36,666 bases of DNA from the NCBI GenBank assembly GCA_937941245.1, contig CALDYC010000088.1:1-36666 (forward strand), read 5' to 3'. Positions 3,853 to 30,278 of this stretch are shown here, one piece after another. Source of the DNA: an uncultured Acidimicrobiales bacterium (lineage in GTDB: Bacteria > Actinomycetota > Acidimicrobiia > Acidimicrobiales > UBA10347). Below the pieces are notes generated by a model that saw nothing but the letters and a program-made list of their open reading frames with translations, made no database searches and was not told the DNA's origin. A program made the position numbers and the translations under genes. Each line of letters opens with the position of its first letter. The stretch's first letter is position 1.

Positions 3853-3937
3853 AACCAGTTTGCCGCACCCGTGCACTATGCACAAAAGTCGTGGCTCGAA
3901 CATCGCGGAGCGCACGCGCCGCACCGACAGGGAACCT

Positions 3938-6792: not shown

Positions 6793-7746
6793 ATGTCTGA
6801 TGCAACGAACAACGCTCCCGAAGCCAGCGAGTGGCAACAACGGATCACCGGCGAGTGGTACGGGCTTCCGTCCGTGTTCGATGCCGACGGTGGTCACACT
6901 GGGTTCAACAAGGTCAACCGGTCATCGGTCTTCGAAGATGGTGTGACGACGTATTACATGCACTGCAATTTCATGAACAGCGGCCCATTGCGCAACCGGT
7001 TCGAGATCTCAGACTTTGCATTTGGTGTCGATGACGGTGGCCGCAACCGGGTGTATCTCGGCCCTGACTTCTATGGCGCCGGCCACCCCTACGGATCACT
7101 TGTTGACTCGCACTATTATTCGCCAGCTTGGCGGGCGGATCTCAACACGATGAACCAGATTCTGCCCGATGGTGTGACGCAGGTCTATTCGTCGCTGTTG
7201 TACGAGGGGCCGACACTGTTCTCAGTCTTCAACGGCGTGTATCTCAACGCGCACGACTACGACACCAACCCCGAGACCAAAGCCCATATCGACGCGTTCC
7301 TCGAGGAAGAGCGGGCAATGGCAGCCTGGTCTCACTCGCTGCCTGATCGTCAGTCAGGCGAGTGGAACGGCACCTGCGAGGTCTATAGCCCGGAGCAAGA
7401 ACTCAAGGGCGAGGTCGAGGTTCGCATTACCCACCAGCCACTCGACCTGGTCCGTGCCCAGCAAACAGTGACGTTCAGCGGAGTCGTGAACCGCAGCTAC
7501 AGCTTTATCCGCCAACGCAACTCGAATCGCCATACCTACGAAGGCCCTGACATGTTCGGCAACGCCATTTCCTACGGAAGGGCGCTGTACACGACCCAGC
7601 ACCACGCGAGCGAGGCATTCAAGGTCAAAGGCCGCGAGTTCATCATCGACCGTGACTTCACGATTGCTGGTGCATGGAAGCTGTCATGGGGCGACCAGAT
7701 GACAGACCTGGTTCACGGACCGCTTGTGTGGACACCCGACTCGTGA
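6793..7746 (+). CDS. Two-repeat calycin/lipocalin-like protein (DUF3598-like?)
   Basis: Two 'GEWxG...D/YxPxxxLxG' modules (GEWYGLPSVFDADGG; GEWNGTCEVYSPEQELKG), similar to the proteins at 9231-10151 and 10972-11436. Confidence 0.5.
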   Translation: MSDATNNAPEASEWQQRITGEWYGLPSVFDADGGHTGFNKVNRSSVFEDGVTTYYMHCNFMNSGPLRNRFEISDFAFGVDDGGRNRVYLGPDFYGAGHPYGSLVDSHYYSPAWRADLNTMNQILPDGVTQVYSSLLYEGPTLFSVFNGVYLNAHDYDTNPETKAHIDAFLEEERAMAAWSHSLPDRQSGEWNGTCEVYSPEQELKGEVEVRITHQPLDLVRAQQTVTFSGVVNRSYSFIRQRNSNRHTYEGPDMFGNAISYGRALYTTQHHASEAFKVKGREFIIDRDFTIAGAWKLSWGDQMTDLVHGPLVWTPDS

Positions 7747-8575: not shown

Positions 8576-9238
8576 TCAGCCGACGATGCGAATCGTTGCC
8601 GAGGTGTTGTCGTCGCTGAGCGTCTCGGCGATATCGGTGATGGTTCCAGAGATCGGATCGGACATCGCCGCACGACGAATCGTCGTGGCCGGGTCCACGC
8701 GTGACAGCCCGACGCGCATTGGACCAATGCGACGTTCGACCATCATCGGCTCGTCAAACGTTGGCGGTTCGACGGTGAGATCAAGCCGCGGGTCAACCCC
8801 GGCCATCTCGGGTACGGCCACACCGACGATGTCGGCCACCGACCGTCCTGCTAGCGAAAACGTCCCGCCAGTCAGCTGACGTCGCGGGTTTACAAGCACG
8901 CTGTAGGAGCGAAACTCGTAGCCGAACCTCGGCCAGACTCCTGAACCGGTCATGGCACCTTCAGCCCACAGGGTGCCCCGGCCAACTACGTCGGGGCCGA
9001 GATAATGGCGATGATCGCCATGTACCTCCATGTCGAATACCCATTCGCCGGCGAACCCGGCCATGGCATGACCGTCGAGCGCGGTGTCGGGCTCGCACAC
9101 TTGCGTGACTCTGATGCCGGTGCCGCCCTCTGTCGCCGCCAGGGTGCGGCGCTGGTGCAGGTTCCCGGCAAAGGAACCATCGGGATTGAACACGTACTCG
9201 GTGACCAGCCAGGCACCACCGAATGGATCGTCACTCAT
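8576..9238 (-). CDS. Calycin-like protein of unknown function
   Basis: 'GGAWLVTEYVFNPDGSFAGNLHQRRTL...' and 'YLGPDVVGRGTLW' resemble the 6793 and 9231 proteins. Start at 9238 (MSDDPFGG) overlaps the upstream stop by 8 bp. Confidence 0.5.
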   Translation of the reverse strand: MSDDPFGGAWLVTEYVFNPDGSFAGNLHQRRTLAATEGGTGIRVTQVCEPDTALDGHAMAGFAGEWVFDMEVHGDHRHYLGPDVVGRGTLWAEGAMTGSGVWPRFGYEFRSYSVLVNPRRQLTGGTFSLAGRSVADIVGVAVPEMAGVDPRLDLTVEPPTFDEPMMVERRIGPMRVGLSRVDPATTIRRAAMSDPISGTITDIAETLSDDNTSATIRIVG

Positions 9239-10151
9239 GGCTAGAACTTTCGAAGTTGGCGTGTCCAACAGCAGCGCCGATGCGCCGTTCGCCTTCGAAC
9301 CATTGGTGAATGACTGCCTTTGCTGAACCGTCGGCACGCGCAATCTCGCGGGACCACAAGCGGCGCTCGTTGGACATAAATAGCAGCTGGCTCGACACGG
9401 CGCGGCCGCCGGCCAGCGTGCCTGAGCCAACGACGTCGTGGGCAGGGGAGAAGCGGGAGTTCCCCTCGACAGAGAAGCTCGCCGTTGCATCGGCGGCGAA
9501 ATGCAGGCCCGACCACGCCAGATCGAGGCTGTCGCCAGCCGCAGTCACTGTTTCGGTATAGGGCGTGGTGCCAACTGGGTTCAGGTCGCCGTCACAGGTG
9601 ACGAGTTGGCCGGACCAGCTTCCGCGACGGTGCAGCAAGGCGGCGCCGCGTCCGGCATTGAGATCTTCAGCGACACCGGCAGGGTCAGTGTCGGCAAAGA
9701 CTGGTTCGATGTCGTCCTCGTCGAGTCGGCGGTGTGATTCGCCGACGACGAGGTAACGCAGCTTCTCTCCACGTGAGATCACCGCGAGTGACAACTGAGT
9801 TCGTTGATCTTGAGCGACAACGAGAGCAAAGCGTTGAGACAAACCGAGATCCGGCCAGTAGTTGTGCGCAGTAACGGCATTATCGCCGATCGGCTCGGCT
9901 CGGCCGTAGTTGAGCGGGCCCTGATACACCCGATAGGTGCCGTGATCAGCGATCGTGTACGAGCCAGCCAGCTCGAAGGGCCCGCTGAATGTCACGTCGA
10001 TCGTGACGATCCCGGTATCGGGATCTCGCTGAACGTTGCGCTGATCTCTGCCGTAGCCGAGAAAGCGCCCAGTTGGGTCATAGACCTCGGACTGGCCGAA
10101 CCATTCGCCGACCCCGGCGCTGAACGAGCGTGACAGCGGGGATTTGTTCAC
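9231..10151 (-). CDS. Two-repeat calycin/lipocalin-like protein
   Basis: 'GEWFGQSEVYDPTGRFLGYGRDQRNV...YRVYQGPLNYGRAEPIGDN' and 'GSWSGQLVTCDGDLNPVG'. GTGA overlap with the upstream gene. Confidence 0.55.
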   Translation of the reverse strand: MNKSPLSRSFSAGVGEWFGQSEVYDPTGRFLGYGRDQRNVQRDPDTGIVTIDVTFSGPFELAGSYTIADHGTYRVYQGPLNYGRAEPIGDNAVTAHNYWPDLGLSQRFALVVAQDQRTQLSLAVISRGEKLRYLVVGESHRRLDEDDIEPVFADTDPAGVAEDLNAGRGAALLHRRGSWSGQLVTCDGDLNPVGTTPYTETVTAAGDSLDLAWSGLHFAADATASFSVEGNSRFSPAHDVVGSGTLAGGRAVSSQLLFMSNERRLWSREIARADGSAKAVIHQWFEGERRIGAAVGHANFESSSHE

Positions 10152-10975
10152 CCGGGCACCACATGCACGGTCTGATGGACGACGGTCGTGTCATCGAGAA
10201 TCTGCGCCAGGTCGGTTTCGGCGGGTTGGGGCAGCAGGTATCGACCGGCAGTGCTGAGGTCGAGTGTCTCGGCTTCAAACGGCCATGGGGCCACGGTGTA
10301 CGTCGGGGTTGCGTCGCCCACGGTTTCGGCGAGCTCGGTGACAGTGATGGTGACGTCGCTGCCATTAGAGGCTGGCACGTGGTCGAAACATGCCTGACCT
10401 CGATCTCCTGGGTGGGCACAGTGCATGTACAACGAGAACGTGTCAAAGAACTGGAGCTGTTTGTAGGCAGTGAAGATCGCGTCTTCGGTCGCGTACTCGG
10501 GCATGGACTGCTCGAGCTGGCTGGTCAAACGTTGCTGACGCTCGGCTTCGACCTCGAGCATGGCATCGACCGTGGACCGGAGTTCGTCAGGAATCAGTTT
10601 CAAGAACACCTTGTCGGACATGCCGAAGCGGCCGTTGTATAGGCCCGTCGTATGCATCGACGAGATCAACCCGCTGAACGGATGATGGGCCTCGTTGAAT
10701 GCGGGCGAACCGGCGCTTGTCGACACGATCTGTTCGAGAGGTGTGGCGGTCAGGTGATACGGAAGCCCGGTCTCGGGGCTCTGCGGTGCGAGCGCATCAA
10801 GTTCGGCCCATCCGTGGTCGTGATGATCGACAACGTACTGCACCGGCTCGCGTGGTGCGATCGGGGCAAAGTCTTTGTTACCGAAGTGTGCCGACACCGA
10901 CCCGGCAAAGGCGGTGTGCTGGTGCATGGCGATCACAAAGTGCGGATGCCCCTCGGCCGCAGTCTGGACGATCAC
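10148..10975 (-). CDS. DUF3891-like protein
   Basis: 'HFVIAMHQHTAFAGSVSAHFG...VDHHDHGWAELD' pattern; ATGA overlap with the upstream gene. Confidence 0.6.
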   Translation of the reverse strand: MIVQTAAEGHPHFVIAMHQHTAFAGSVSAHFGNKDFAPIAPREPVQYVVDHHDHGWAELDALAPQSPETGLPYHLTATPLEQIVSTSAGSPAFNEAHHPFSGLISSMHTTGLYNGRFGMSDKVFLKLIPDELRSTVDAMLEVEAERQQRLTSQLEQSMPEYATEDAIFTAYKQLQFFDTFSLYMHCAHPGDRGQACFDHVPASNGSDVTITVTELAETVGDATPTYTVAPWPFEAETLDLSTAGRYLLPQPAETDLAQILDDTTVVHQTVHVVPG

Positions 10976-11472: not shown

Positions 11473-11489
11473 GTTCCGCCTAGCGGAAC
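11473..11489. promoter_or_regulatory. Putative IclR-family operator, site 2
   Basis: Perfect palindrome GTTCCG-CCTAG-CGGAAC between divergent operons (11436- and 11502+). Degenerate companion GGTTCG-CAAAG-TGAAAC at 11453, 20 bp away. Confidence 0.78.
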
Positions 11490-12794: not shown

Positions 12795-13610
12795 ATGAGC
12801 GCACCCCGAAAACGAATCGTGATCACCGGAAGCACCCGAGGGATTGGCAACGGCCTGGCGCGCGAGTTCCTCAAGCGCGACTGCGCCGTTGCGATCAGTG
12901 GCCGGTCGGCTGGTCCGGTGGCTGCGGTCGTGGCAGAACTCGGCGAGTACTACGGAACCGACCGGGTTTGCGGAGCAGCGTGCGACATCACCGATAGCCA
13001 TTTGCTGCAGGGGCTGTGGGACGTAGCGGCTGATGCCTTCGGTGGGGTGGACGTATGGATCAACAATGCTGGTGTGAGCATTGTCCGAAGCCCGTTATGG
13101 GAACAAAGCGATGACGAACTTGCGTCGTTGGTTGCCACCAACCTGACTGGCGCGTTGCTCGGCTCCAAAGTTGCGATTCGAAACATGATCGAACAGCAGA
13201 GCGGCCAGGTGTGGAATACCGAGGGCTTTGGGTCCGATGGAGCTACCCAGAGCGGCATGGTGGCCTACGGCAGCACGAAACGGGCCGTGCGGTACATGCA
13301 GAAGGGCCTGCGCAAAGACACCGCCGACACGCCAGTGCAGGTCTGCACAATGTCGCCGGGAATTGTCGTCACAGATCTGCTCGTCGGTGACTACGACCTG
13401 ACGTCAGACGAGTGGGAGAAGTCGAAGAAGATCTTCAACATTCTCGGCGACACTGTCGAAACGGTCACGCCGTGGCTCGCTGAGCACATGCTGTCCACTG
13501 ACAAGTCAGGTGCGAGAGTCGCGTGGCTCACCCGACGCAAAGCCTCGAGTCGATTTATGACCGCCGCGTTCCGCAAGCGTGACCTCTTTTCAGCGATCGA
13601 GGGTGCCTGA
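12795..13610 (+). CDS. Short-chain dehydrogenase/reductase resembling chlorophyll b reductase (NYC1/NOL)
   Basis: 'RIVITGSTRGIGNGLAREFL', 'DVWINNAG', 'VAYGSTKRAVRYMQKGLRKD', 'CTMSPGIVVTDLLV', 'KKIFNILGDTVETVTPWLAEHML' closely track plant NOL ('NVVITGSTKGLGKALAREFL', 'INIWINNAG', 'AVYGSTKCGLRQ', 'ASPGMVLTELLL', 'KQMFNIICELPETVARTLVPRM'). Confidence 0.8.
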   Translation: MSAPRKRIVITGSTRGIGNGLAREFLKRDCAVAISGRSAGPVAAVVAELGEYYGTDRVCGAACDITDSHLLQGLWDVAADAFGGVDVWINNAGVSIVRSPLWEQSDDELASLVATNLTGALLGSKVAIRNMIEQQSGQVWNTEGFGSDGATQSGMVAYGSTKRAVRYMQKGLRKDTADTPVQVCTMSPGIVVTDLLVGDYDLTSDEWEKSKKIFNILGDTVETVTPWLAEHMLSTDKSGARVAWLTRRKASSRFMTAAFRKRDLFSAIEGA

Positions 13611-16376
13611 CCCTTCAGGGCTAGCGACCGAGCCCGAGCGGGCAATCGCTGCGGGGTCATCGCCGAGATAGCTGCGAATGACTGCCTCGTCTTCTTGGAC
13701 CTCGACCGGAGTCCCCTCGGCGATGACGCTGCCAACTTCGAGCGCAATCATGCGATCACAGATCGACACGAGCATGGGCATGTCATGTTCAATGACCACG
13801 ACGGTGATTCCGTAGACGTCGCGGATCTGCGAAATGATCTGACCGAGCATTTCGGTCTCGGCCTGAGCAATGCCCGCTGAAGGTTCGTCGAGCAGAAGCA
13901 GACGCGGCTGCAACGTGACGTTTGCTGCGAGCTCAACGATGCGACGGGTGCCAGTCGACAGCGACGAGATCGGCTGGTCGCCGAGCGCAGTGAGCCCGAA
14001 AAGGGCCAGCGTGGCGTCAACATCAAAGGGCGCTCGTGAGTCGATCCGTGCCGCGGCCGCAAGCAGCAGCACATAGCGCGACGTCATGGTCGGGAAGAGC
14101 GACGCGTTCTGAAACGAACGCACCAGACCGAGGGCGCTTCGCTGATGCGGGGCCATCGATGAGACGTCGACACCATCAAAGATGACTCGGCCGGTGTCGG
14201 GCGTGACAAAGCCGCTTATCAGCTCAAACAGCGTGGTCTTGCCAGCCCCATTAGGGCCAATCAGACCGAGTGTCTCGCCGGCTGCAACGGTCAGCGAAAC
14301 GTCGTCGACCGCCCGAACCGACCCGAATGTTCGCGTGACGTTCTCGACGACGAGCAGGGGCTGTCCCGAGGCGGTCGGGGTGACAGCCGGTGGGCCGGAA
14401 CGTGTGGCTTGGCCACTGGCGTCGGTACCAGCGAGCGTGGCGAAGTCGAGATCCGGATCCAGAGCGTTGTCATCGTTGCCGTCAACCACGACCCCTGCCC
14501 GCAGAGCGATGCGGTCAACGAGGTTGCGCCGAGTCGACGCGAGTAGACCGGCGAGCCCCCGTGGCTGTTCGATAATCAGGATGAGCCATGCGGCGTTTAC
14601 GCCCGCAAGCGCTGACAGTTCGAGGTCGAAGAACCCGGGAATACCCACCAGATATGCCGCGCCAAGCAGCGGGCCAGCAAGCTCGGACAGCCCGCCGATT
14701 ACTGCAATAGACACCACGTTGATGCTGTCGGTCGGGGTAAAAAGTGCCCGGGTTACAAAGCTGTTCGCGAACGCCAGGGTGCTTCCGCCCACCCCAGCCA
14801 AAACACCAGCGAACGCGTAGGCGAGCAAGGTTGCTCGTCGAGGGGACACCCGAAAAACCTGTGATGCCGGTTCGTTGTCGCGTAACGCAACGAGTGAACG
14901 CCCGAAGTCTGAGCGGCGCACGATCGTTGCAAGGATCAACATCACGACAAATACCGCAAGGGCCACGTGATAGAACCCGCGAGCGGTGACCACTTCAGCC
15001 CCCGCCAGCTTGAGTGGCCGCGAAGACAGCCCGCTTCCGAGCGTGAAGTCTTGGCGCAGGAACCAGCTGTAGGTCGCCACTGCGAACGCGAGCGTGACGA
15101 TCGCCAGACGAAGGCCTCTGAATCGTAGGGCGGGGACAGCGACCGCGGCCGAAACGGCTGCTCCCACCCCGGCACCAGCAACAAGCCCGAGCAGCATGCT
15201 CGACGTTTCGGTGGAGACCTTTACCGCGGCAACCGCACCGATGGCGGCAACCGCGATCTGACCCAGTGACAGCTGGCCAGCGATTCCAGTCAGGAAGCTC
15301 ACCGATACCGCAACCAGTGCAACCGAGAGCACGGCAGTCAGGACGAAAGCTGACTGGTTGCTGATCCAAATCGGGGCGAGAGCCGCAGCCACCACGCCGA
15401 TGCCGCCGAGCACCCACCCGAGATTGCGGATCAGCCAGACGTGTTCATAGGCGTCGGGCAGACGATCGGTCGTGCCCAGCGTTCCCCACGATTCGACGTC
15501 GTCTCGTTGATCGCTCACCTGCAGCGCAACCGCGACCGTGATCAGCACGAAGAGTGCAACCTCGAACCAACCGGTTGCATCCCGGTTTGATGCAATGACT
15601 TGCTCGAGCACACCAATACCGACGCCGGCAACAAGCGCGGCGCCGAGGTTGGCGAAGCGGGCCAACGCGGCGACCGCCAGACCACGCAGAATGAAGTCGG
15701 GGCCGAGCGTTTCGGGTGTGACCGTGCTCTGGTTCGGGATGATCAAAATGGCCGCGAACGCGGCGATCGCCCCGGCCAATGCCCACGACAGCATGGCCAT
15801 GTACTTCGGGTCGATTCCGGCGAGCGTGGCCGCATCGGGGTTCGAAGCAGCGCCTCGAATTGCGATGCCGAATCGGCTGCGTTGGAGGAACAGATACAGA
15901 GCGCCGATGACGATGGGCGAGAGGAACATGAGCGCAGAAGCCGATGGCGACACGAACACCGTCAGGTCAAATTGCGGGAAGCCCGGAGGTTGCGGAAAAC
16001 TTCGCCCACCCAATCCGCCGCCGGCGAACGACAATGCAAGCAACAGCAGCGCCTGCCCAGTGCCTAGCGTCGCGACCATGGCGAGAACCTTCGGGGCGTC
16101 GGCCAGCTTGCGCACGACGAACGCTTCGAGACCGGCGCTAATCAGAGCTGCGACGATGAGCGCACCGACGAACCCAAGCCAGTACGGCACGCCGTAGCCG
16201 TTGACGACCACCGACATCATCGATGCAGCGACGAGACCAACGGCCCCGTGAGCGAAGTTGATGAACCCCGATGACCGATATGCCAGCACCAATCCGATGC
16301 CCAGCAGGGCGTAGCCGATGCCGAAGATCGTCCCAAGCAACACGAGCGGTCCGGAGAAGTCGAATCCCCACATCAT
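13590..16376 (-). CDS. Fused branched-chain-type ABC transporter: LivH-like permease + LivM-like permease + LivG-like ATPase
   Basis: N-terminus 'GIGLVLAYRSSGFINFAHGAVG' (LivH), middle 'GIAGQLSLGQIAVAAIGA' (LivM), C-terminus 'LGLIGPNGAGKTTLFELISGF...LLLLDEPSAGIAQAE' (LivG), in one 928-aa frame. Confidence 0.92.
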   Translation of the reverse strand: MMWGFDFSGPLVLLGTIFGIGYALLGIGLVLAYRSSGFINFAHGAVGLVAASMMSVVVNGYGVPYWLGFVGALIVAALISAGLEAFVVRKLADAPKVLAMVATLGTGQALLLLALSFAGGGLGGRSFPQPPGFPQFDLTVFVSPSASALMFLSPIVIGALYLFLQRSRFGIAIRGAASNPDAATLAGIDPKYMAMLSWALAGAIAAFAAILIIPNQSTVTPETLGPDFILRGLAVAALARFANLGAALVAGVGIGVLEQVIASNRDATGWFEVALFVLITVAVALQVSDQRDDVESWGTLGTTDRLPDAYEHVWLIRNLGWVLGGIGVVAAALAPIWISNQSAFVLTAVLSVALVAVSVSFLTGIAGQLSLGQIAVAAIGAVAAVKVSTETSSMLLGLVAGAGVGAAVSAAVAVPALRFRGLRLAIVTLAFAVATYSWFLRQDFTLGSGLSSRPLKLAGAEVVTARGFYHVALAVFVVMLILATIVRRSDFGRSLVALRDNEPASQVFRVSPRRATLLAYAFAGVLAGVGGSTLAFANSFVTRALFTPTDSINVVSIAVIGGLSELAGPLLGAAYLVGIPGFFDLELSALAGVNAAWLILIIEQPRGLAGLLASTRRNLVDRIALRAGVVVDGNDDNALDPDLDFATLAGTDASGQATRSGPPAVTPTASGQPLLVVENVTRTFGSVRAVDDVSLTVAAGETLGLIGPNGAGKTTLFELISGFVTPDTGRVIFDGVDVSSMAPHQRSALGLVRSFQNASLFPTMTSRYVLLLAAAARIDSRAPFDVDATLALFGLTALGDQPISSLSTGTRRIVELAANVTLQPRLLLLDEPSAGIAQAETEMLGQIISQIRDVYGITVVVIEHDMPMLVSICDRMIALEVGSVIAEGTPVEVQEDEAVIRSYLGDDPAAIARSGSVASPEGSGTLDR

Positions 16377-18361
16377 GTGTCGAGCGCCTGGGCTAGACCC
16401 TTGAGATACGCGGACTGCAGTAACTCAGGGCGGGCCCGCAAGTCCGCTGCCGAGCCTTCCCAGCCAATCGAACCCTTCTCCATGACATAGGCATGGTCGG
16501 CAACCGACAGAGCAATGTTCACTGATTGCTCGACGAGCAGCACGGCCGCGCCACGCTCGGCAATCGTTCGCACGACCGGCAGCAGGTCAGCGATCACGGT
16601 CGGAGCGAGACCGAGTGAGAATTCGTCGATGAGTAGAAGCTGGGGACGCACAATGATTGCCTTGGCGAGCGCCAACATTTGTTTCTCGCCGCCGGAAAGG
16701 GTGGCAGCTCGCTGGCTCCGACGTTCTGCGAGCCGAGGAAACAGCGCGACCGCCTCTTCGATCGCGTCGGAACGGCGAACGGGATCGATGCCGTGGCTGA
16801 ACAAACGCAGGTTCTCTTCGATGGTCATCGGCCCAACGACTGCTTCGCCTCCGACGATCTGGTGCAGGCCCATACCCACGCGCCATGTTGGGCGGGTTCG
16901 GGTGATGTTCAAGCCGGCATAGACGATGCGGCCGCTGAGCGAGGGTTCGAGCCCACTAATCGTGCGCAGCAGCGTCGTCTTGCCGGCCCCGTTGGTTCCG
17001 AGCAGCGCCACAACCTGGCCCGGCTGGACTTTGAGGTCTACGCCGAAGAGGACCTGCACATCGCCATAGGCCACAGCGAGGTTCTCTACCCGCAACAGGT
17101 CGGTGGGTGCTGTCCCAGCTTCGCCGTCGAGTGCATCGACCCGACGGGGGACCGTTGCTGCTGATGTGGTGACTGCGGACAGTTCAGGAGGGCGGGCCGA
17201 GTCCGAGTACCTGCGCACGTGCCAGCCGACGTATGCGATGGGCGGACCAAGCCAGGCAATGCGCCACTGTGCATGCAGCCCGTCGATGAGCCAGGCGTTG
17301 ACGCTGCAGGCGACGGCCGCGCCGACCGCCGCCGCTTGCACCTGGCCCGAAGCAATCCTGCGCCGCACGGCGGGCGTTGAGCTTGCGAACGTCGAAGCAT
17401 CGAGACCGATTGCAGCCAGGCAGAGCAGTCCGCCGCCGACGGTCCAGCTAACGACCAGACCAATGTAGGTGAAGGACAACGCGCCGGTGGTTATCGCCGC
17501 ACCGGCGCCAAACAGTTGCAAGCCAATGACGTCGGCGCGGCGGCTTCCGGTCAGTTCGCCCAACCGGTGGTACCACGAGCCGAAACCTGCGACGAGTGCG
17601 GCAGCGAGCGTTGAGACGCCGAGTACCGCGGCCAATTGTCGGTCGCTGCGTTGCCATTCGTCGAGTAGTAGTTCTTGGGCCGGGCTAGCTGCGGCCACCA
17701 TGGCTGCACCGACAGTGAGCGCAGCGAACTTGCTGCGGCGAACCCACGGCGTGTCGAGCAACGGCGATGTCCCCTCAGAAACCACGTCATCGTCATGCGC
17801 GAGTGCGTGGGGCGTCAGGGCTGCGGTTGCGCCGGCCATGACGGCCATCGCGATCCACAGCTGAGTGTCAACGCTTGGCTCAGCGATCACTCGCAGCCCG
17901 AGCGGCCATCCAGCTCCACACGCCACGCCAACCCAATAGCGCGAAACGTATCTGAACCGGGTTTGGTGAGTGGATGCCGTCGAGACCATGACCCGGTGAA
18001 GTGCCATCGCCGGTCCGAGTGCGGCCGCGACGATGATTGCTGCGACGGTAAAGAGGACGATCTCGATCGTCCAGGCGGCGAGAGCGAGTCCCAGCGTCGC
18101 GACGAGAGCACTCAGCCAGAGAAAAACTCCTGCGGGAAGCACATCGCGCGTGCGGACCGTAGCGACGCAACCCAGGACAAGAACGGCTGCGGCAATGGTG
18201 GCCTCGGCCGTCAGCGCGCCGAGCACCTCAAACTCGCTAGCCAGCCGTGCCCGGTTGAAGAGCAGGATCGAGATCGGGGCAGCGACAGCCGCTCCGTGCA
18301 AGCCGATCGCACGCACCAACCACGGTGTCGAAGCTGCGACGGGTGCCGCAGCCTCAGCCAT
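16373..18361 (-). CDS. MFS-like/polytopic membrane domain fused to LivF-like ABC ATPase
   Basis: About 400 aa of hydrophobic segments, then 'LLRVENLAVAYGDVQVLFGVDLKVQPGQVVALLGTNGAGKTTLLRTISGL...LSGGEKQMLALAKAI...LLIDEFSLGLAP'. ATGA overlap with the next gene. Confidence 0.88.
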   Translation of the reverse strand: MAEAAAPVAASTPWLVRAIGLHGAAVAAPISILLFNRARLASEFEVLGALTAEATIAAAVLVLGCVATVRTRDVLPAGVFLWLSALVATLGLALAAWTIEIVLFTVAAIIVAAALGPAMALHRVMVSTASTHQTRFRYVSRYWVGVACGAGWPLGLRVIAEPSVDTQLWIAMAVMAGATAALTPHALAHDDDVVSEGTSPLLDTPWVRRSKFAALTVGAAMVAAASPAQELLLDEWQRSDRQLAAVLGVSTLAAALVAGFGSWYHRLGELTGSRRADVIGLQLFGAGAAITTGALSFTYIGLVVSWTVGGGLLCLAAIGLDASTFASSTPAVRRRIASGQVQAAAVGAAVACSVNAWLIDGLHAQWRIAWLGPPIAYVGWHVRRYSDSARPPELSAVTTSAATVPRRVDALDGEAGTAPTDLLRVENLAVAYGDVQVLFGVDLKVQPGQVVALLGTNGAGKTTLLRTISGLEPSLSGRIVYAGLNITRTRPTWRVGMGLHQIVGGEAVVGPMTIEENLRLFSHGIDPVRRSDAIEEAVALFPRLAERRSQRAATLSGGEKQMLALAKAIIVRPQLLLIDEFSLGLAPTVIADLLPVVRTIAERGAAVLLVEQSVNIALSVADHAYVMEKGSIGWEGSAADLRARPELLQSAYLKGLAQALDT

Positions 18362-19808
18362 CAAAGTCGATGGGGTCGCTGTCGATCGTCATGCATTCGC
18401 AGGTCTCGTCGAAACTGAAGCGGACGTACTTGTCGCCGCCGGCATATATGCCGGGCGTGAACTCGACCCCGTAGACCGATGCGGCCTCGAACGAGTCGCC
18501 GAGGCCCCAAACGGCTTCGCTGATTCCGGCGGCGCTGATCTCGTCCGCCTGGTTACCAGCGGCGGCTACCAGATTGATGGCGTCGCAAAAGACCAGGCCG
18601 GTGCGGACCGACGCTCGGTCGGTGACGTCAAGCCCGGCAGCGACGAACAAGTCAACACAGCCCTTCTCGGCATCGTTCGCAGGAAATGCGTACTCGGCAT
18701 CTTTGACGTCGTAGCCGGGCAGCACGCTAATCCCGGCCGCTCCACCCATCATCTCGGGGTAGTTGAAGGTGTTGAAGTCAGGGGCGTCGTAGCTCGACAC
18801 CGCAAACTCGGCTGAGAAGTTCTGCACCAAGCTGGTATCGATAAACCACGAAACCAGGCGCGAGCCACCAATCGCGACGACGCGGTCAACGCCTGCTTCC
18901 TTGAAGTTCACGATTGCCTGCAGCTGATCATTGTTGAAGGACGTGCCATCGGTCGGGTCGATGGTGTTGTACGAAGCGATCTCAATGCCGGCTTCGCGGA
19001 GCACGGGTGCGAACTGCTCGTCGAAGACCCGCTGGCTAAGCCCTGAATCGATGGCGATCACACCAACCGTGCCGCCGTCAAACCAGCCGCTCGCAACGAG
19101 GTCTGAGCCGAGGCCGGAAACGAGATCGTCATAACTGGGCAGGAACGGAGACCAGTAGTAGGGCGCAAGTTCTTCGAACCCAGCGTTGTCGACGGGGTAC
19201 AGCGTGGCATCGAGCATGAGCGTGTTTGCTGCGGCGTAACACGGCCGAGCGTTCTCTTGGAGTTGCCCAGTCATCACCACTGCGAACGCCTTGTCGTCTT
19301 GGGTGATCGCGTTGCAGAGCTGCTCTTCGGCAACGGGGCCATCGGTGATCGCGTTGAACACGTGGATCTTGGGAACGATTTGGCGACCGGCAACGCCGCC
19401 ATTGGCGTTTGCCGCGTCGACCAGCGCCATGACCTGCGCTTCGCGGTCGCCCTCGCTGGGAGTCTCCCATCCGAATGCGGCAGCAACCGCGCTGGTATCG
19501 GTGATGATGAAGGACATCGTGATTTCGTCGTCGGTCACGCCGGGGGTGTCGGGCCCGGCGGGTGCGAGTGTGGGAGCTTCGTCTTGGTTCGAAGCGGCAT
19601 CACTGTCTGTGTCTGTGTCGGTGTTTGCGTCGGCGTCTGCAGGGTCGGGGTTGCCCTGGTCGCTCGTGGCGGCAGTCGTTGTGTCGTCGGTGTTTGTGCT
19701 GTCGTCGGCATTGTCCGATGCGGACTGGGAGCAGGCGTTGAGGGCCAAGGTGAGAATGGCCAGAATGGCGATCACGGTGCGGAGCCTGCGGGGGTCGGTG
19801 CGATGCAT
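18354..19808 (-). CDS. Extracellular substrate-binding lipoprotein (Leu/Ile/Val-binding, type 1 periplasmic fold)
   Basis: Lipobox 'TLALNAC', Asp/Thr-rich linker, 'VAEEQLCNAITQDDKAFAVV...GGTVGVIAIDSGLSQRVFDEQFAPVLREAGIEI'. Adjacent to Liv-type ABC genes. Confidence 0.85.
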   Translation of the reverse strand: MHRTDPRRLRTVIAILAILTLALNACSQSASDNADDSTNTDDTTTAATSDQGNPDPADADANTDTDTDSDAASNQDEAPTLAPAGPDTPGVTDDEITMSFIITDTSAVAAAFGWETPSEGDREAQVMALVDAANANGGVAGRQIVPKIHVFNAITDGPVAEEQLCNAITQDDKAFAVVMTGQLQENARPCYAAANTLMLDATLYPVDNAGFEELAPYYWSPFLPSYDDLVSGLGSDLVASGWFDGGTVGVIAIDSGLSQRVFDEQFAPVLREAGIEIASYNTIDPTDGTSFNNDQLQAIVNFKEAGVDRVVAIGGSRLVSWFIDTSLVQNFSAEFAVSSYDAPDFNTFNYPEMMGGAAGISVLPGYDVKDAEYAFPANDAEKGCVDLFVAAGLDVTDRASVRTGLVFCDAINLVAAAGNQADEISAAGISEAVWGLGDSFEAASVYGVEFTPGIYAGGDKYVRFSFDETCECMTIDSDPIDFDG

Positions 19809-19822
19809 GCGAATATCTCTCA

Positions 19823-20113
19823 TCAGGTTGGTGTCGTAACACCGGACGGGGAACGGGAAAGGGCCGAGTCTCGGGTGTCGAGACTGGATGCGCGCACCGC
19901 GGTGCGATACGCGCTTCGCCGCTCGCTCAGCCTGTCATTGACAAGCCACGCGATCAACAAGAGTAGAACCACAACGATGAGCGTCTGCGGCAGGCGACCG
20001 AGCTTGAGCCAGCCTTCGCCGATGACGTGGAGTAACTCATCATTGAATCCACACAAGTACAGCAGAGTTCCAGCTCCGGGGCCGAACCATGGTCGTGTGA
20101 GCATGCGGTTCAT
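19823..20113 (-). CDS. Small single-TM protein of unknown function
   Basis: ATG at 20113 overlaps the acyl-CoA dehydrogenase stop (ATGA). 'MNRMLTRPWFGPGAGTLLYLCGFNDELLHVIGEGWLKLGRLPQTLIVVVLLLLIAWLVNDRLSERR...'. Confidence 0.55.
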   Translation of the reverse strand: MNRMLTRPWFGPGAGTLLYLCGFNDELLHVIGEGWLKLGRLPQTLIVVVLLLLIAWLVNDRLSERRSAYRTAVRASSLDTRDSALSRSPSGVTTPT

Positions 20114-22149: not shown

Positions 22150-22166
22150 GTTCCGCCCAGCGGAAC
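22150..22166. promoter_or_regulatory. Putative IclR-family operator, site 3
   Basis: Perfect palindrome GTTCCG-CCCAG-CGGAAC, with GTTCGC half-site at 22170 (20 bp away), upstream of the 21389 (-) gene. Confidence 0.75.
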
Positions 22167-22314: not shown

Positions 22315-25107
22315 CTACTGCGTGGCGACATGCAGCGCGCCCACGAGCAGATCAGCGTCGCCCTGGTTGTCCCCGAGCAGGCTCCCGTACGAGTAGCCGC
22401 TCCAGACCAGGGTGGTGTCGTCAACGACGTCAATGCCGGTGATGTCATCGACAGCCGCAGAGCCGGTCTGATCAATCGAAAGCAGCGTTCCGTCGAGCGC
22501 GAACCAGACGAGCAACGTGTCGCGATCGCCAGCAGGTGTCCCCAGAGCACCGGCGCTGCTTCCGGATACGACAATTCGATCACCGACCAGACGAACCTCA
22601 AAGCCGGTGTCGAGTTCATCGGTCCCGACCTGCGAAACGAAGACTTCATTGCCCTCGGCGTCGAACGACGCGACCACCAAATCGCGCCCTCCCTGATGAG
22701 GTCCCGCAAGCGAACCCTCGGTCGAGCCGGTGATGAGCACGCCACCGTCGGGACCCTCTCCGACACCTTGGGTCCAGTCGAGCGCATCGCTTCCGATCTG
22801 ACGGGTCCATATGGTCTCACCAGATGCCGAGAGGCGGGTGATGAAGATGTCTTTGCCTCCGCTGTTCGCCCCGTCCATGTCGCCTTCGGTGTAGCCGGTG
22901 ACGTACACGCCATCGTCGGGGGCGAGTGCGGAGCCTTGGCCCCAGTCAGTTGCGTCGGTGCCGATGTGGCGCAGCCATTCTTGATTGCCCTCGCCGTCAA
23001 AGCGGGTGACGTAGCCATCGAAGCCTTCGAGATCGCTCTGCGGGTCAAGCGCGCTGGCCGTGTATCCGGTGACGTACACGCCATCGTCGGCCGCGGTGAC
23101 GTCGAAGCCACGATCCCATCCGTCTGCGCCGAACTGGGCACGCCAGATCTCATTGCCATCGGCATCGAACCGGGCGAGCCATACATCTGCTGAACCCTGG
23201 TTGGGTGATGCAAAGTCCCCCTCGGTGAAACCCCCGACATAGAACGTGTCATCGTCGGCGACAGACACGCCCAATGGCGACTCGTTTTTCGCGCTGCCGA
23301 ACTGCAACGCCCATCGCTCGGCACCCGTGTCGTCGTAGCGGGCAAGGAAAATGTCCCGACCGCCGAGATTCGGGCTTGCCAAGCTGCCCTCGGTGGCGGC
23401 CGCGAGCACCAGGTCTCCGCTGGACATCGCCGCGACTCCAAAGCTGGTATCGGCGGCGTCTGAACCAAACTGCGTTTGCCAGATCGGCGCAGAACCCGAC
23501 CCGCCGACCTCAGCCGGCGAGGTCGCTGCTTCGCCAGTTGTATTGCTGTCCGAAGCTGTCGGGGTATCGAGCGAGAAGATCAGTAACTCATGGGTTTCGT
23601 AGCTGGTGAACAGGATCTCGTGGTCGCCGTCGCCGTCGAGGTCTTCGACGATACCGCCAGCCGCTTGGCCGAAATTCTCTGCAAGAACGTGTTGGGTGAA
23701 CTCGCCGGGGGTGATCTGTTCAAGCCAAAATATGCGGTTGTCGCCGTCGCCGGAAACGGCCAGGTCGATGTCGCCGTCGTCGTCGACGTCACCCCACGAG
23801 AATACGCCTGGGGCGGCTTGGAAAGCAGTGCCGATGGTCTCGCGAGACACAATGTTGTCGCTGATCGGTTCGACGTCCCACGGGTCGCGGGGGTCTGGGG
23901 CCGGCGTCAGCAGGTGAATGCTTGCTGGCAGCGCCCCTTCACGGTTGGGTACGTGATTTGACCCGACCCAACCGGTTCGCCCATCGCCGAAGAGGTCGTC
24001 GATGGCCGCGATCTGGATGGTGCGACCGACCGAGGCGACGACTTCGTGGCGGATCCACGAGCCCGCCCGATTCGCGTCATCTGGAGGGGCGAGGTTTTCG
24101 AACCACACGTAGGAAGCGCCCTCGATGAAGAATTCTCCGCTGGCGAGATCGATGTCGCCGTCGCCGTCGACATCGTGAGCGACGGGCAAGCTTCCGCCGC
24201 CCTGGCCGATGATGCGGGCTTCGGTCTCGAACTGCAGTCCTTCGCCCGTTCCGCGGTACCACTCTGCTTGAGCATCGGCCTGGAACTCGGCGACGGTGAT
24301 CAAATCATCGATGCCGTCGCCGTCAATGTCTGCGAACTCTGATCGGTGGTAGAACCCAGTCGCGCCTCGAGGCACGATGTCTCGGCGGATCCACTGTCCG
24401 TCACTGTTCTCGAGCCAAAACAGCGCGCCACATGGTCCGATCTCTTGGTTGAGCTCACATACGAAGAAACCGCCTCCGACCATGATGTCGAGATCACCGT
24501 CGCCGTCCATGTCGCGCGGGAGCGCCTCGTTGGGAAAGTAGTCCCCGTCGTCGGGTGTGATCACTGGCTCTGCGATCCAACTGTCGAGGTCTCCCTGGTT
24601 CCAGAAGATGGTGATGCCCCCGGGCGGGAATTCGATCGGTCCGGGATTCTCTCCGCGGTCGCCAAAGAAGTTCATAACCAGGTCGAGGTCGCCGTCGCCG
24701 TCCATATCCGCAGGTTCGGCGCCAGCAGGGCCGTTGCCGTCGGTGGTGACAGTGATGACCGAGAAGCGGCTGTCGGCGGGCGTTGTGGGCTCCGGTGCAT
24801 CTGCTAGCTCTGGTTCTGTCTCTGCTTGCGTTTCTGCTTGCGTTTCTGCTTGTGTTTCTGGTTCCGCCTCGGCTGCGACGGTCGGCTCGGTTGTCTCGGT
24901 CGATGCAACGGTTGGCAATGGTTGCTCGGCGTCGTCTGAATCGAGTACCTCGGCCGACTCTTCACGAATGTCTGGTTCGGAGGTGATGCCGGGCGCGTCT
25001 GAGTCCTGTGTGGTCTCGTCCTCGGCGACGCCGCCGCATGCGGCGAACACGAGTAGGGACGCACAGAACGCGCTTCCAACAGATCGAGCGATGCGGCGTG
25101 TCGGCAT
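22315..25107 (-). CDS. Secreted lipoprotein with FG-GAP/VCBS repeats and C-terminal SBBP-like beta-propeller repeats
   Basis: Signal with lipobox 'LVFAACGG'; repeated 'DxDGDGDLDL' calcium-type motifs; then repeated 'W..QFGSD..D...GV......V.V.G.T.G.L...N.GG.DIFL.R' units. Confidence 0.85.
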   Translation of the reverse strand: MPTRRIARSVGSAFCASLLVFAACGGVAEDETTQDSDAPGITSEPDIREESAEVLDSDDAEQPLPTVASTETTEPTVAAEAEPETQAETQAETQAETEPELADAPEPTTPADSRFSVITVTTDGNGPAGAEPADMDGDGDLDLVMNFFGDRGENPGPIEFPPGGITIFWNQGDLDSWIAEPVITPDDGDYFPNEALPRDMDGDGDLDIMVGGGFFVCELNQEIGPCGALFWLENSDGQWIRRDIVPRGATGFYHRSEFADIDGDGIDDLITVAEFQADAQAEWYRGTGEGLQFETEARIIGQGGGSLPVAHDVDGDGDIDLASGEFFIEGASYVWFENLAPPDDANRAGSWIRHEVVASVGRTIQIAAIDDLFGDGRTGWVGSNHVPNREGALPASIHLLTPAPDPRDPWDVEPISDNIVSRETIGTAFQAAPGVFSWGDVDDDGDIDLAVSGDGDNRIFWLEQITPGEFTQHVLAENFGQAAGGIVEDLDGDGDHEILFTSYETHELLIFSLDTPTASDSNTTGEAATSPAEVGGSGSAPIWQTQFGSDAADTSFGVAAMSSGDLVLAAATEGSLASPNLGGRDIFLARYDDTGAERWALQFGSAKNESPLGVSVADDDTFYVGGFTEGDFASPNQGSADVWLARFDADGNEIWRAQFGADGWDRGFDVTAADDGVYVTGYTASALDPQSDLEGFDGYVTRFDGEGNQEWLRHIGTDATDWGQGSALAPDDGVYVTGYTEGDMDGANSGGKDIFITRLSASGETIWTRQIGSDALDWTQGVGEGPDGGVLITGSTEGSLAGPHQGGRDLVVASFDAEGNEVFVSQVGTDELDTGFEVRLVGDRIVVSGSSAGALGTPAGDRDTLLVWFALDGTLLSIDQTGSAAVDDITGIDVVDDTTLVWSGYSYGSLLGDNQGDADLLVGALHVATQ

Positions 25108-25115
25108 CGTGGGTT

Positions 25116-25132
25116 GTTTCGTTGTACGGAAC
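25116..25132. promoter_or_regulatory. Putative IclR-family operator, site 4
   Basis: GTTTCG-TTGTA-CGGAAC, with GTTTCG half-site at 25136 (20 bp away). Confidence 0.65.
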
Positions 25133-25223
25133 ACCGTTTCGTTCTACTGCCATTCGTCTGTCGTCGGCAAGTGCCGGAGTCGGGTGGTCTGGGCTCCGGG
25201 CTCGTCGGGCCAATCTCGATGGT

Positions 25224-25240
25224 GTTCCGTTGACCGGAAC
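25224..25240. promoter_or_regulatory. Putative IclR-family operator, site 5, overlapping a + strand promoter
   Basis: Perfect palindrome GTTCCG-TTGAC-CGGAAC, half-site GTTTCG at 25244. TTGACC (25230)-17 bp-TACTGT (25253) reads as -35/-10 for the 25314 gene. Confidence 0.7.
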
Positions 25241-25313
25241 GGCGTTTCGTTCTACTGTCTAGTCATCGCACCCGCGATCTTTCGCTGGGTGCAGGGAAAA
25301 TAGGGGATTTCTG

Positions 25314-26060
25314 ATGATTCGTCGCACATTTGTCGTACTTGGCTTGGTCCTTGGGTCGATTGGGCTCTTGGCCAACACCGCTGGAGCAGACCACGCCGTA
25401 GCGCACAACGGCGAGACCGCCGAAATTTCGAAGTCGGACGGCTTGACGCAGGACGAAACAGTGATGGTGACCGGCATCGGCTATGCCCCCGGTTCCACGC
25501 TGACCGTGGTGCAGTGTTTCACGTTCCCGGCCGCCGGCCCGACCGATTGTGAGCTCAGCAATTACGGCCTGCACACCGCCGAAGTGGACGACGAGGGCTT
25601 CGGGACGGTCGAGTACGTCGTCAACGTTGTCGACGGCAAGTGCGATGCGAGTAACCCCTGTTTCATCGTGGTTAGCGACGGCATCGGGCCCTCGGCAAAT
25701 GGTGTTGGTCTTGAAGTGACGTTCGCAGACCCAGCCGCTGAGCAGGCTGCGGCTGAGCAGGCGGCGGCTGAGGAGGCTGCGGCTGAGGAGGCTGCGGCTG
25801 AGGAGGCTGCGGCTGAGGAGGCTGCGGCTGAGGAGGCTGCGGCTGAGCGGGCTGCGGCTGAGCGGGCTGCGGCTGAGGAGGCTGCGGCTGACGAGGAGGC
25901 TCCGGATAACGGCGACGACTCGAATACTGACGAAAGTGATGACTCAGATAGTGACGGTGACGGCGGCGGCTCGGGTTGGATTGTTCCGGTCGTGATCGTC
26001 GGTGCCGTGATAGCTGCGGGTGGCGCATTTGCCGCAACCCGCCGCGGCGGATCGAGCTGA
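25314..26060 (+). CDS. Secreted, membrane-anchored protein: neocarzinostatin-like domain + AEEAA-repeat stalk + C-terminal TM
   Basis: Signal peptide; 'SDGLTQDETVMVTGIGYAPGSTLTVVQCF...DCELSN...VSDGIGPSANGVGLEVTF' resembles the neocarzinostatin apoprotein fold; (AExAA)n; 'GWIVPVVIVGAVIAAGGAFAATRRGG'. Confidence 0.8.
   Translation: MIRRTFVVLGLVLGSIGLLANTAGADHAVAHNGETAEISKSDGLTQDETVMVTGIGYAPGSTLTVVQCFTFPAAGPTDCELSNYGLHTAEVDDEGFGTVEYVVNVVDGKCDASNPCFIVVSDGIGPSANGVGLEVTFADPAAEQAAAEQAAAEEAAAEEAAAEEAAAEEAAAEEAAAERAAAERAAAEEAAADEEAPDNGDDSNTDESDDSDSDGDGGGSGWIVPVVIVGAVIAAGGAFAATRRGGSS
25736..25890 (+). repeat. 15-bp coding tandem repeat (consensus GCGGCTGAGGAGGCT), about 10 units
   Basis: Direct reading of the DNA; encodes AEQAA/AEEAA/AERAA units. 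Confidence 0.92.
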
Positions 26061-26167: not shown

Positions 26168-27415
26168 CTAGGTGGCGGAACGAGGCTCGAGAGGGGGATA
26201 GGCGCCGACTTCGCGCAGTTCAGTCTCCATTGCCTGCACAGCGGTGATCATCGAAGCCGTTCGTAGGTACTCGAGGCAGAGATCGGGGTCATTCGCCCGA
26301 GTGCGCATCTGTTCGAGCGCCTCGGCCCGAACAGCGGCGTCGGGGGTCGCGAGCGTGACCGCGTTCGTGTGGGTGTGGCGCTGTACGAAATCGATCGCTA
26401 GCTGGCGACGCAATCTGGCGTAGTCATCAAGGCGCGCGCTGCTGGTCGTGCCATGGAGATAGCCGGCGAGCCCAGCGCCGAGCAGCACCGCGTCATGAAC
26501 CCCGCCGTTCATGCCCATGCCGCCAAGAGGATTGTTGATGTGCGCCGCGTCGCCGGCCAGCAGAACGTTGCCGACCCTGAAGGTCGAGGCAACGCGCTGA
26601 TGCACCCGATAGATGGTGCGGTGCGCGATGTCATAGCTCCCATCGCGGGCGACTACGCCTTGCAGGCGGCGTTGTGCGCTTTGGTCGGTGAGCGCTTCGG
26701 CGTCGGTTTCGTCTTCGCCAACTGGGAACAGTGCTCGCCACAAGTCGACAGTGCGAAGAAGCACCAGCCACTCATCAGGGTCAGAGATGTAGTTGACGTA
26801 GGCCAAATTGTCGAGAGATTGGGAGAAGTCGAAGGTGGTCGACACGACGAGGTACCGGTCGGCGTACGTCATGCCCTCAAAGTCAAGGTGCAGACTCTTG
26901 CGGACAGCGCTCGAAGCTCCATCGGCGCCCAAGACGGCATCGCACGGTATTTCCTCACCAGATTGCAGCGAGACCACGGCGCCGTCGTCGGTCGAGCTCG
27001 CGCCAGCTACGGCCGCCCCAAAGCGCACTGTGACACGGTCGCCTTCGGCGAATTGGTCGAGCAACGCCTCGCAGAGCTTGTACTGCTCACATTGGAGCCG
27101 GAACGGAAATCGTGTCTCGTCGCTCAGCAGGCCAAGATCGAATTCCGCGACCACCCCATGCGAACGCTCGCGATAGGCGAACCGTTCGGCGATAAGACCG
27201 CGAGCGACCAGTGTGTCGATAATCCCGAACGGCTCGAGCATTTCGAGAGTTGCCGGGTGAAAGGTCGAAGCCCGCAGCTCGCGAGGAAGGTCGTGGGCAG
27301 CTTCGAGCAGTGTGACGTCGATATTGCGGGCCGCGAGCGTGGCTGCCGCAACGCAACCAACGGGTCCGGCCCCAGCGACGACGACATGGGGGCGAGGCGT
27401 CGTAGTAGTCATCAA
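26168..27415 (-). CDS. FAD-dependent monooxygenase (PHBH/UbiH-type aromatic hydroxylase family)
   Basis: 'VVVAGAGPVGCVAAATLAARNIDVTLLEA', 'GADGASSAVRKSL', 'VGNVLLAGDAAHINNPLGGMGMNGGVHDA'. Confidence 0.9.
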   Translation of the reverse strand: MMTTTTPRPHVVVAGAGPVGCVAAATLAARNIDVTLLEAAHDLPRELRASTFHPATLEMLEPFGIIDTLVARGLIAERFAYRERSHGVVAEFDLGLLSDETRFPFRLQCEQYKLCEALLDQFAEGDRVTVRFGAAVAGASSTDDGAVVSLQSGEEIPCDAVLGADGASSAVRKSLHLDFEGMTYADRYLVVSTTFDFSQSLDNLAYVNYISDPDEWLVLLRTVDLWRALFPVGEDETDAEALTDQSAQRRLQGVVARDGSYDIAHRTIYRVHQRVASTFRVGNVLLAGDAAHINNPLGGMGMNGGVHDAVLLGAGLAGYLHGTTSSARLDDYARLRRQLAIDFVQRHTHTNAVTLATPDAAVRAEALEQMRTRANDPDLCLEYLRTASMITAVQAMETELREVGAYPPLEPRSAT

Positions 27416-28158
27416 AACTCGCGCAGCATCATGCCGTGGCCCTCGAATTGGTCAGCGATGTCCAGCGTGCGCAATGCATGCCACAAGCACGTCGCGTTGA
27501 TCGCGAGCACTGGTTTGCCCAGGATCTTCTCGGCCTCGTCGGCTACCGCCACCATCGACAGGTTGGTGCCGCATTGCACGATGGCGTCGATGTCGGGGCC
27601 ATCGAGGGCTTTGAGTTCCTCGAGTAGCGTCTCTGGTGTGACGTCGGCAATCGACGTGGCGGTCTCGCAGCGCAGTCCTTTGACCCGCTTGACGTCGTAG
27701 CCGCATTCTGTGAAGTAGCCGTGCACTTGCTCGTCGCCGACCGGTTGGTAGGGGGTGATACACGCAATCCGGCTTGCGTCGAGGCGCTCGAGAGCGGCGT
27801 TGCATGCGTCGGCCCCCGAGGTGATGCCGAGGTCTCCGGAGATTTCTCGAACTCTGGCTTCGAACTCGGCGTTGCCTTCCTTGCCGCCCCAGAATGTTTC
27901 TGCCGACATGCCCATCAAGATGTAGTCCGGTTCGCACGTCATGATGTCGCGAACTGCGTTCGGAATGGTGTCCCGAATGAGTCCGAGGAAGTGCAGGAAC
28001 GCATCGTCAGAGCTCAGGTCAGGTGCTTCGACGAAGAAGCGGCCGCTGTGAAATGTGACGCCTGGCGGACGCACCTGGTTCAGGTCATGCTCGACCACGG
28101 TGTTGGTCGATGGCAGAATCACGCCAATCTTTGCTCGGTAACCAACAACATCGGGCAT
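27412..28158 (-). CDS. Asp/Glu racemase superfamily (maleate isomerase/arylmalonate decarboxylase-like), copy 2
   Basis: 'GVILPSTNTVVEHDLNQVRPPGVTFHSGRFFVEAPDL', 'LMGMSAETFWGGKEG', 'IVQCGTNLSM'. Clear paralogue of 21389-22135. ORF extends to 28185. Confidence 0.82.
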   Translation of the reverse strand: MPDVVGYRAKIGVILPSTNTVVEHDLNQVRPPGVTFHSGRFFVEAPDLSSDDAFLHFLGLIRDTIPNAVRDIMTCEPDYILMGMSAETFWGGKEGNAEFEARVREISGDLGITSGADACNAALERLDASRIACITPYQPVGDEQVHGYFTECGYDVKRVKGLRCETATSIADVTPETLLEELKALDGPDIDAIVQCGTNLSMVAVADEAEKILGKPVLAINATCLWHALRTLDIADQFEGHGMMLREF

Positions 28159-28234
28159 GACGGTCTCCTGGAATCGTTGCATCATCGCCCATGAGGGCGA
28201 TGCGGCGCCGCAGTCGGACGCAACTCGGAACGCT

Positions 28235-28251
28235 GTTCCTCTGGCCGGAAC
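28235..28251. promoter_or_regulatory. Putative IclR-family operator, site 6
   Basis: GTTCCT-CTGGC-CGGAAC, with an extra CGGAAC at 28226 (20 bp from the right arm) and GTTCCG at 28267. Confidence 0.6.
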
Positions 28252-29480: not shown

Positions 29481-30152
29481 TCAGAGTTTGCGCAGGACGG
29501 TGACCACTCGACCAAAGATTGTGACCTCGTCCGGTGCGAAAACCATTGGTTCAAGGGATGGGTTCTGTGGCTGAAGGACGATCCGCGAGGCAGAGCTCTC
29601 CGCGAGGGTCTTGACCGTTCCTTCATCGCCGGGAATGCCAGCAACGACGATGTCGCCGATCTCGGCAGTTGGTTGGACCCGAACGACCACGAAGTCGCCG
29701 TCGAAGATGCCCGCGTCGATCATCGATTCGCCGCGTACCCGCAGCATGAAGAGCTCACCGTCGCCGGTGAGATCGGCAGGAAGCGGAACCAGTTCCTCGA
29801 CATTGGACTGCGCGAGTACATCGGTGCCGGCAGCGACGTCGCCGATAAGTGGAACGTGGCAGACGGTTGCTTTGTCGGCAACCGCTCCTGAGCGTGGGTC
29901 ATAGCGGACCTCGATTGCGCGTGGCTTGTCGGGGTCGCGGCGGAGAAAGCCATGCTTCTGCAAGGTGGCGAGGTGTGCATGCACCGTTGATGGCGATGTC
30001 AGTCCAACTGCTTCGCCGATCTCGCGCACCGAAGGCGGGAACCCCCGCTCGCGCATTTGGTCGGCGATGAACTCAAGAATGCCGCGTTGTCGGTCGGAGA
30101 GCTTGTGTGTGTCGGGCTCGGCGTATGCATCGTTCGTGGTCATGTCACTCAT
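29481..30152 (-). CDS. lexA: LexA repressor
   Basis: HTH 'LSDRQRGILEFIADQMRERGFPPSVREIGEAVGLTSPSTVHAHLATLQKHGFLRRDPDKPRAIEV', Ala-Gly cleavage site 'DVAAG', 'RGESMIDAGIFDGD', 'GTVKTL'. Exact start uncertain. Confidence 0.96.
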   Translation of the reverse strand: MSDMTTNDAYAEPDTHKLSDRQRGILEFIADQMRERGFPPSVREIGEAVGLTSPSTVHAHLATLQKHGFLRRDPDKPRAIEVRYDPRSGAVADKATVCHVPLIGDVAAGTDVLAQSNVEELVPLPADLTGDGELFMLRVRGESMIDAGIFDGDFVVVRVQPTAEIGDIVVAGIPGDEGTVKTLAESSASRIVLQPQNPSLEPMVFAPDEVTIFGRVVTVLRKL

Positions 30153-30278
30153 TTCTTCTTCGTCTTCGACTCGGTCTTTGTTGTCGACTCGGTCTTTGTC
30201 GTCGTCGTGGGGTAGCGGGGGCGGGGGCGGTTGGATCAGGTGGTCGGAGCGGTGAGGGGCAATGGTGCGAGTTGCAAT

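Follow-up and report, generated by a model that had tools for sequence, protein, structure and literature searches.

To our knowledge the neocarzinostatin (NCS) fold is known almost only as a carrier of enediyne drugs, and many other members of the family have no assigned ligand. The enediyne apoproteins shield their chromophore, and in neocarzinostatin itself the C37-C47 disulphide and F52 lie directly beneath the enediyne ring (PMC2694159). Besides its own chromophore the neocarzinostatin apoprotein also binds ethidium, naphthoates and flavone (PMC2694159). The window, i.e. the whole stretch of DNA that was analysed (36,666 nucleotides, one contig of an uncultured Acidimicrobiales bacterium), encodes a protein which shares with the apoproteins of neocarzinostatin, macromomycin, C-1027 and kedarcidin the fold, a domain of ~115 residues, two Cys pairs, secretion and, in alignment with Phe52 of neocarzinostatin, an aromatic residue. 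Unlike these apoproteins, however, it is tethered to the cell by a stalk and a transmembrane (TM) segment. Its parts are as follows:

25314-26060, + strand: open reading frame of the NCS-domain protein, 248 amino acids
25314-25388, + strand: signal peptide, residues 1-25, read from the sequence, with a predicted AGA/DH cleavage site ahead of 25389
25389-25736, + strand: neocarzinostatin-fold domain (residues 26-141), containing both Cys pairs and the motif of the clade (from PF00960, structure model, Foldseek and motif)
25737-25896, + strand: stalk, (AAAE[EQR])n, a 15-bp tandem repeat of 10.7 copies with 94% match
25897-25976, + strand: acidic, Ser- and Gly-rich linker, from the sequence
25977-26057, + strand: TM segment at the C-terminus (about 25977-26036), followed by a TRRGGSS tail and read as a type I membrane anchor

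A locus search gave five related loci, of which four are in Acidimicrobiales-type MAGs and the fifth is in a MAG that carries the label Rhodospirillaceae, and further relatives were added by a profile search of the genomes of the order; L024 and G261 are one assembly (identical 343,977-base contig) and were counted once. The window domain matches PF00960 (Neocarzinostat) with an E-value of 1.4e-6 and 28.7 bits, the curated cut-off being 25, a match that spans only positions 3-54 of the 110 of the profile, i.e. its first half. Nowhere else in the genome is PF00960 found above the cut-off, and all six aligned orthologous domains match it. The AlphaFold2 model of the isolated domain, made from an alignment of the window domain and five relatives (A1), has a pLDDT of 84 and a pTM of 0.79. 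When it was compared with the PDB by Foldseek, ten chains fell below an E-value of 1e-3 and all belong to the neocarzinostatin family, among them macromomycin (TM 0.70/0.72), holo-neocarzinostatin 1nco (0.65) and engineered neocarzinostatins, with antibody V domains ranking after them at weaker E-values. The domain has both of the family's Cys pairs, and by sequence they are conserved across the close clade; the pair matching C37-C47 of neocarzinostatin is retained, and almost every member has Tyr or Phe at the F52-aligned position.

The likeness to enediyne carriers has limits. The domain reaches 35.4 bits with NCBIfam NF040680 (enediyne antibiotic chromoprotein), which unlike the enediyne apoproteins leaves it far below the cut-off of 86. 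A profile search gave kedarcidin as the top match (E 0.004). Ahead of the second Cys pair, the hairpin of kedarcidin has 11 residues (7+4) more than that of the window clade, so the full-length two-stranded ribbon beside the chromophore cleft was not found here. Since this hairpin is short, one side of the cleft must differ from that of the enediyne carriers and binding of the enediyne type should not be assumed. Moreover, no enediyne biosynthetic context was seen among the neighbours in the window and its relatives, which are catabolic and transport genes.

The order of the parts is signal peptide, NCS domain (~116 residues), ten AEEAA/AAAE[EQR] units, linker and TM segment. An equivalent C-terminal TM segment with a basic tail occurs in the close orthologues that have a complete C-terminus. 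An LPXTG-type sorting signal is absent from the protein sequence, the TM segment with its TRR tail standing instead. Signal peptide, folded domain, variable low-complexity stalk and anchor are common to bacterial stalked surface receptors in general, the difference being that the folded domain is here of the neocarzinostatin type and comes without a sortase signal. The stalks vary in length and chemistry between orthologues (AEEAA in the window, a short Ala/Glu piece in G004, EP-rich, PTEAPEP or TTTEAP elsewhere); the spacer is kept and its sequence is not. Relatives have stalks rich in EP or TEAP, or else a lipoprotein-like anchor at the N-terminus, so the AEEAA helix itself is not important, and the stalk as a functional element was ruled out by the lack of conservation of its sequence. 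The mature N-terminus DH directly after the AGA cleavage site is kept in relatives. It begins a nearly invariant DHxxxHNGE element (window 25389-25418 and orthologues), whose two His may possibly be ligands of a metal or of a tetrapyrrole metal.

An earlier note, made from the DNA alone, had described this frame as a surface-displayed NCS-type domain on an AEEAA-repeat stalk which, by analogy with apoproteins that bind and shield reactive hydrophobic chromophores, could capture a hydrophobic pigment at the cell surface. The fold assignment is confirmed by the agreement of PF00960, model and Foldseek, and the AlphaFold check that it had proposed for an unrelated Ig-like fold was run and returned the neocarzinostatin family. 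Surface display is likewise upheld by a signal peptide, stalk and TM segment that are conserved in orthologues. As to the stalk, the ten-unit repeat is indeed there, but the importance of its helix did not survive the comparison with relatives; nor can the shielding analogy simply be carried over, given a hairpin ~11 residues shorter beside the chromophore cleft.

The neighbourhood is best introduced by the second described system, the PAO/RCCR pair of plants, which the cluster context (and not the NCS protein) resembles in that a Rieske oxygenase lies beside an RCC-reductase homologue. The Rieske enzyme of the window is however of the VanA_C type and not PAO, and the bacterial cluster continues into an apparent catabolism of ring fragments. 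The main neighbours are:

3860-4750, + strand: RCC reductase/bilin reductase homologue (PF06405), same regulon, from Pfam and profile search
13590-19823, - strand: LIV-type ABC importer, permease/ATPase fusions and substrate-binding protein (family by inspection, synteny)
22315-25134, - strand: FG-GAP/SBBP beta-propeller protein with a lipoprotein-like N-terminus, divergent partner of the NCS gene
26168-28185, - strand: FAD monooxygenase and a maleate-isomerase-like protein, whose genes neighbour the NCS gene in close relatives

Further genes of the window encode a CN-hydrolase, a PEP-mutase/ICL-type lyase, an HpcH-type lyase, an acyl-CoA dehydrogenase and, in all, two maleate-isomerase-like proteins, the cluster extending over window positions 456-28185. 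The product of 3860-4750 scores 59 bits with PF06405 (cut-off 24.9), and the bacterial RCC-reductase profile finds plant RCCR with an E-value of 2e-16 and the plastid bilin reductase 6qwq with 1.5e-7. Of the two catalytic residues of plant RCCR, a Glu and an Asp, the Asp has an invariant Asp aligned with it or close by, and the Glu lies opposite a gap. The cluster looks like an undescribed pathway for tetrapyrrole or pyrrole degradation. A 12-bp tandem repeat (AETQ repeats) was also seen at window 24821-24860, in the N-terminal low-complexity part of the propeller gene.

The palindrome GTTCCG-N5-CGGAAC occurs as five perfect copies in the 2.68-Mb assembly and four of these lie in this 36.7-kb contig (binomial P about 1.7e-7). 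The perfect sites (GTTCCGNNNNNCGGAAC) start at 3836, 11473, 22150 and 25224, and two sites with one mismatch at 25116 and 28235:

3836-3852, no strand assigned: operator between the divergent HpcH and RCC reductase genes, from motif search
11473-11489, no strand assigned: operator between the divergent genes at 11436 (-) and 11505 (+), from motif search
22150-22166, no strand assigned: operator upstream of a maleate-isomerase-like (Amdase)/acyl-CoA dehydrogenase pair, from motif search
25116-25132, - strand: one-mismatch operator where the divergent beta-propeller gene starts, from motif search
25224-25240, + strand: operator GTTCCGTTGACCGGAAC, overlapping the -35 box TTGACC of the NCS gene, from genome motif search and orthologues
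25230-25258, + strand: promoter with -35 TTGACC (25230-25235), 17-bp spacer and -10 TACTGT (25253-25258), from the sequence
28235-28251, no strand assigned: operator with one mismatch upstream of an Amdase-like/FAD monooxygenase pair (and aminotransferase), from motif search

The operator/promoter GTTYCGTTGACCGGAAC precedes the NCS gene throughout the close clade (G175, G228 and G298 have variants that differ in a single base), and the same palindrome stands at other cluster promoters in several related species. A longer motif, GAACNNNGTTTCGTTCTAC, was rejected as the shared unit because no more than two exact copies of it occur genome-wide; what the sites have in common is the shorter palindrome. 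At the flank of the cluster in G243 a gene for an IclR-type regulator adjoins the CN-hydrolase (L130 5943-6800; IclR_C 154 bits), and the counterpart of this position in the window falls beyond the contig end. This regulator is possibly the owner of the palindrome, to which it would bind. LexA (29481-30161) is not favoured in this role: the copies of the palindrome are concentrated in the cluster, and in G243 it is an IclR-family gene that lies at the cluster's flank. After the IclR gene of L130 there are genes for CoA-transferases, MmgE/PrpD, an amidohydrolase, an HMGL-like protein and an isochorismatase.

The linkage of the NCS gene with this cluster extends well beyond the window. Gene order is conserved in relatives, where the NCS gene sits between the FAD monooxygenase and the acyl-CoA dehydrogenase genes, and the SBBP part of the propeller gene adjoins it in other genomes too. 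Among 397 genomes of the order the PF06405 enzyme was found in 17, the NCS clade (defined as an A1 profile match with E below 1e-37) in 13 and both in 12, for which the hypergeometric value, ignoring kinship, is 3e-18. In genus g35 all five enzyme-positive genomes have the NCS clade, and the six listed enzyme-negative ones show only weak matches to another NCS-domain protein. The one genome with the NCS clade only, G228, is fragmented, and its NCS gene lies with FAD monooxygenase, Amdase and acyl-CoA dehydrogenase genes on an 8.8-kb contig. In four further enzyme-positive genomes (G023, G250, G324 and G388) the cluster itself contains a gene for a divergent NCS-domain protein, which in G023 and G324 is apparently an N-terminally anchored lipoprotein with the stalk first; on the 21-kb contig of the enzyme-positive G356 no NCS-domain protein was seen. 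The genomes with the clade domain in the cluster include two that are essentially single-contig, G176 and G243, and a foreign or artefactual reading frame was ruled out by the close domain relatives found in the same cluster of 13 of the 397 genomes. RCC reductase was found in three of 377 sampled genomes of the phylum, all three in this order. A second, divergent RCC-reductase paralogue (34% identity) lies at about 9357 of L149 (G324:C33:52000-71000), and no other gene of the window cluster was detected near it.

That the NCS gene belongs to the regulon of the cluster is thus well supported, by the shared operator/promoter and by linkage, and we are confident that its product is a surface-tethered NCS-fold member of the RCC-reductase regulon. 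The catabolic operator that the earlier note had placed over the gene proves to be the palindrome of the cluster within the NCS promoter, conserved in relatives. The pigment character which it had given to the cluster is in turn substantiated by the presence of the RCC-reductase/bilin-reductase homologue and its tight co-occurrence with the NCS clade.

Our main reading, to which we give a probability of about 0.45, is that the protein is a surface ligand-binding protein of an IclR-type-controlled catabolic regulon, feeding a bilin-type substrate to the importer. It would be made once the operator over the -35 box is released, presumably through repression and induction. The NCS domain, held off the membrane by the low-complexity stalk and the C-terminal TM helix, would capture the hydrophobic substrate of the cluster, which is probably linear-tetrapyrrole-derived and of the bilin type, and together with the beta-propeller lipoprotein might hand it over to the LIV-type importer. 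Breakdown would then proceed through the RCC-reductase homologue, the Rieske and FAD oxygenases and the maleate-isomerase-like enzymes. A small-ligand role of the domain is likely, and that this ligand is a tetrapyrrole is an informed guess, for which the linkage to the enzyme speaks. Narrowed to a receptor for linear tetrapyrroles, namely breakdown products of chlorophyll or haem, which feeds an undescribed IclR-type-controlled bilin degradation, the proposal is tentative and the odds are against it. If it is true, this would be the first natural non-enediyne role of the neocarzinostatin fold. The tie of the NCS clade to a regulon bearing a bilin reductase gives a specific and testable ligand class, and the cluster is a candidate bacterial route for the breakdown of chlorophyll-derived bilins. 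The literature searched, on RCC-reductase clusters in bacteria, on the catabolism of bilins and on neocarzinostatin proteins of the cell surface, gave no description of such a cluster and nothing else of relevance.

The enzymes of the cluster also allow a different substrate. The closest PDB chains of the FAD monooxygenase are PnpA and the pyridine enzyme HspB, it resembles nitrophenol/pyridine monooxygenases, and as the Rieske enzyme is of the VanA_C type the substrate could be another aromatic or N-heterocycle. Capture at the surface would then take place as proposed, with a smaller N-heteroaromatic or aromatic ligand degraded via maleamate/maleate in place of a tetrapyrrole. The two maleate-isomerase-like proteins agree with this, as do the hydrolases encoded within or close to the cluster (isochorismatase, amidohydrolase and nitrilase-type), but all of these would also fit the breakdown of bilin pyrrole/maleimide fragments. 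As the RCC-reductase/bilin-reductase homologue is a core and consistently linked gene, we hold the smaller ligand to be rather unlikely.

PF00960 is not rare in the order: it was matched in 112 of the 397 genomes, many of the matches lying in multi-domain frames of 400-1500 residues with several copies each. The domain name alone therefore does not imply pigment binding, and such large proteins suggest a generic Ig-like use, which counts against the main reading. The NCS domain could accordingly be a structural or adhesive block with no small ligand, which holds the propeller lipoprotein or fixes cells to particles; the NCS and SBBP propeller genes adjoin even in distant clusters, and some relatives have tandem NCS domains in one protein (L021 7940-8617; L143, from G228:C78, 2103-3314). 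These other PF00960 proteins belong to the same domain family and are often large multi-domain frames. In the 30 loci checked, none has the motif C[FY]x[FY]Pxx[GS]PxDC of the clade, an aromatic/Pro loop between the first Cys pair. Searched as C[FYW]x[FYW]Pxx[GSA]PxDC, it was found in each of the 13 loci of the clade, against 0 of 30 PF00960 loci from elsewhere in the order. With an operator that is tightly conserved and linked to one catabolic cluster, this clade-specific loop makes a purely structural use unlikely, and it is linkage and loop, not the domain family, that carry the argument for a pigment. Least probable is a protective carrier or quencher, sequestering a photoreactive surface pigment to limit damage rather than feeding uptake: the apoprotein role cited above and the pigment-linked context would suit it, but the hairpin is truncated, and in relatives the NCS gene comes first in a run of genes on one strand that includes those for acyl-CoA dehydrogenase and the importer, an arrangement that speaks for feeding more than for shielding.

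Some other genes of the cluster deserve mention. Window 6793-7743, 8576-9301 and 9231-10151 encode paralogous beta-rich proteins (19-26% identical) for which only a sub-threshold match to DUF3598_N was obtained and which are possibly calycin-like bilin handlers. The protein of 6793-7743 is strongly conserved in the clusters of relatives (up to 86%), and its structure model had a pLDDT of 36 and was unusable. Next to these, at window 10148-10975, the cluster contains a DUF3891 protein (119 bits), and the linkage might help to assign a function to this family.
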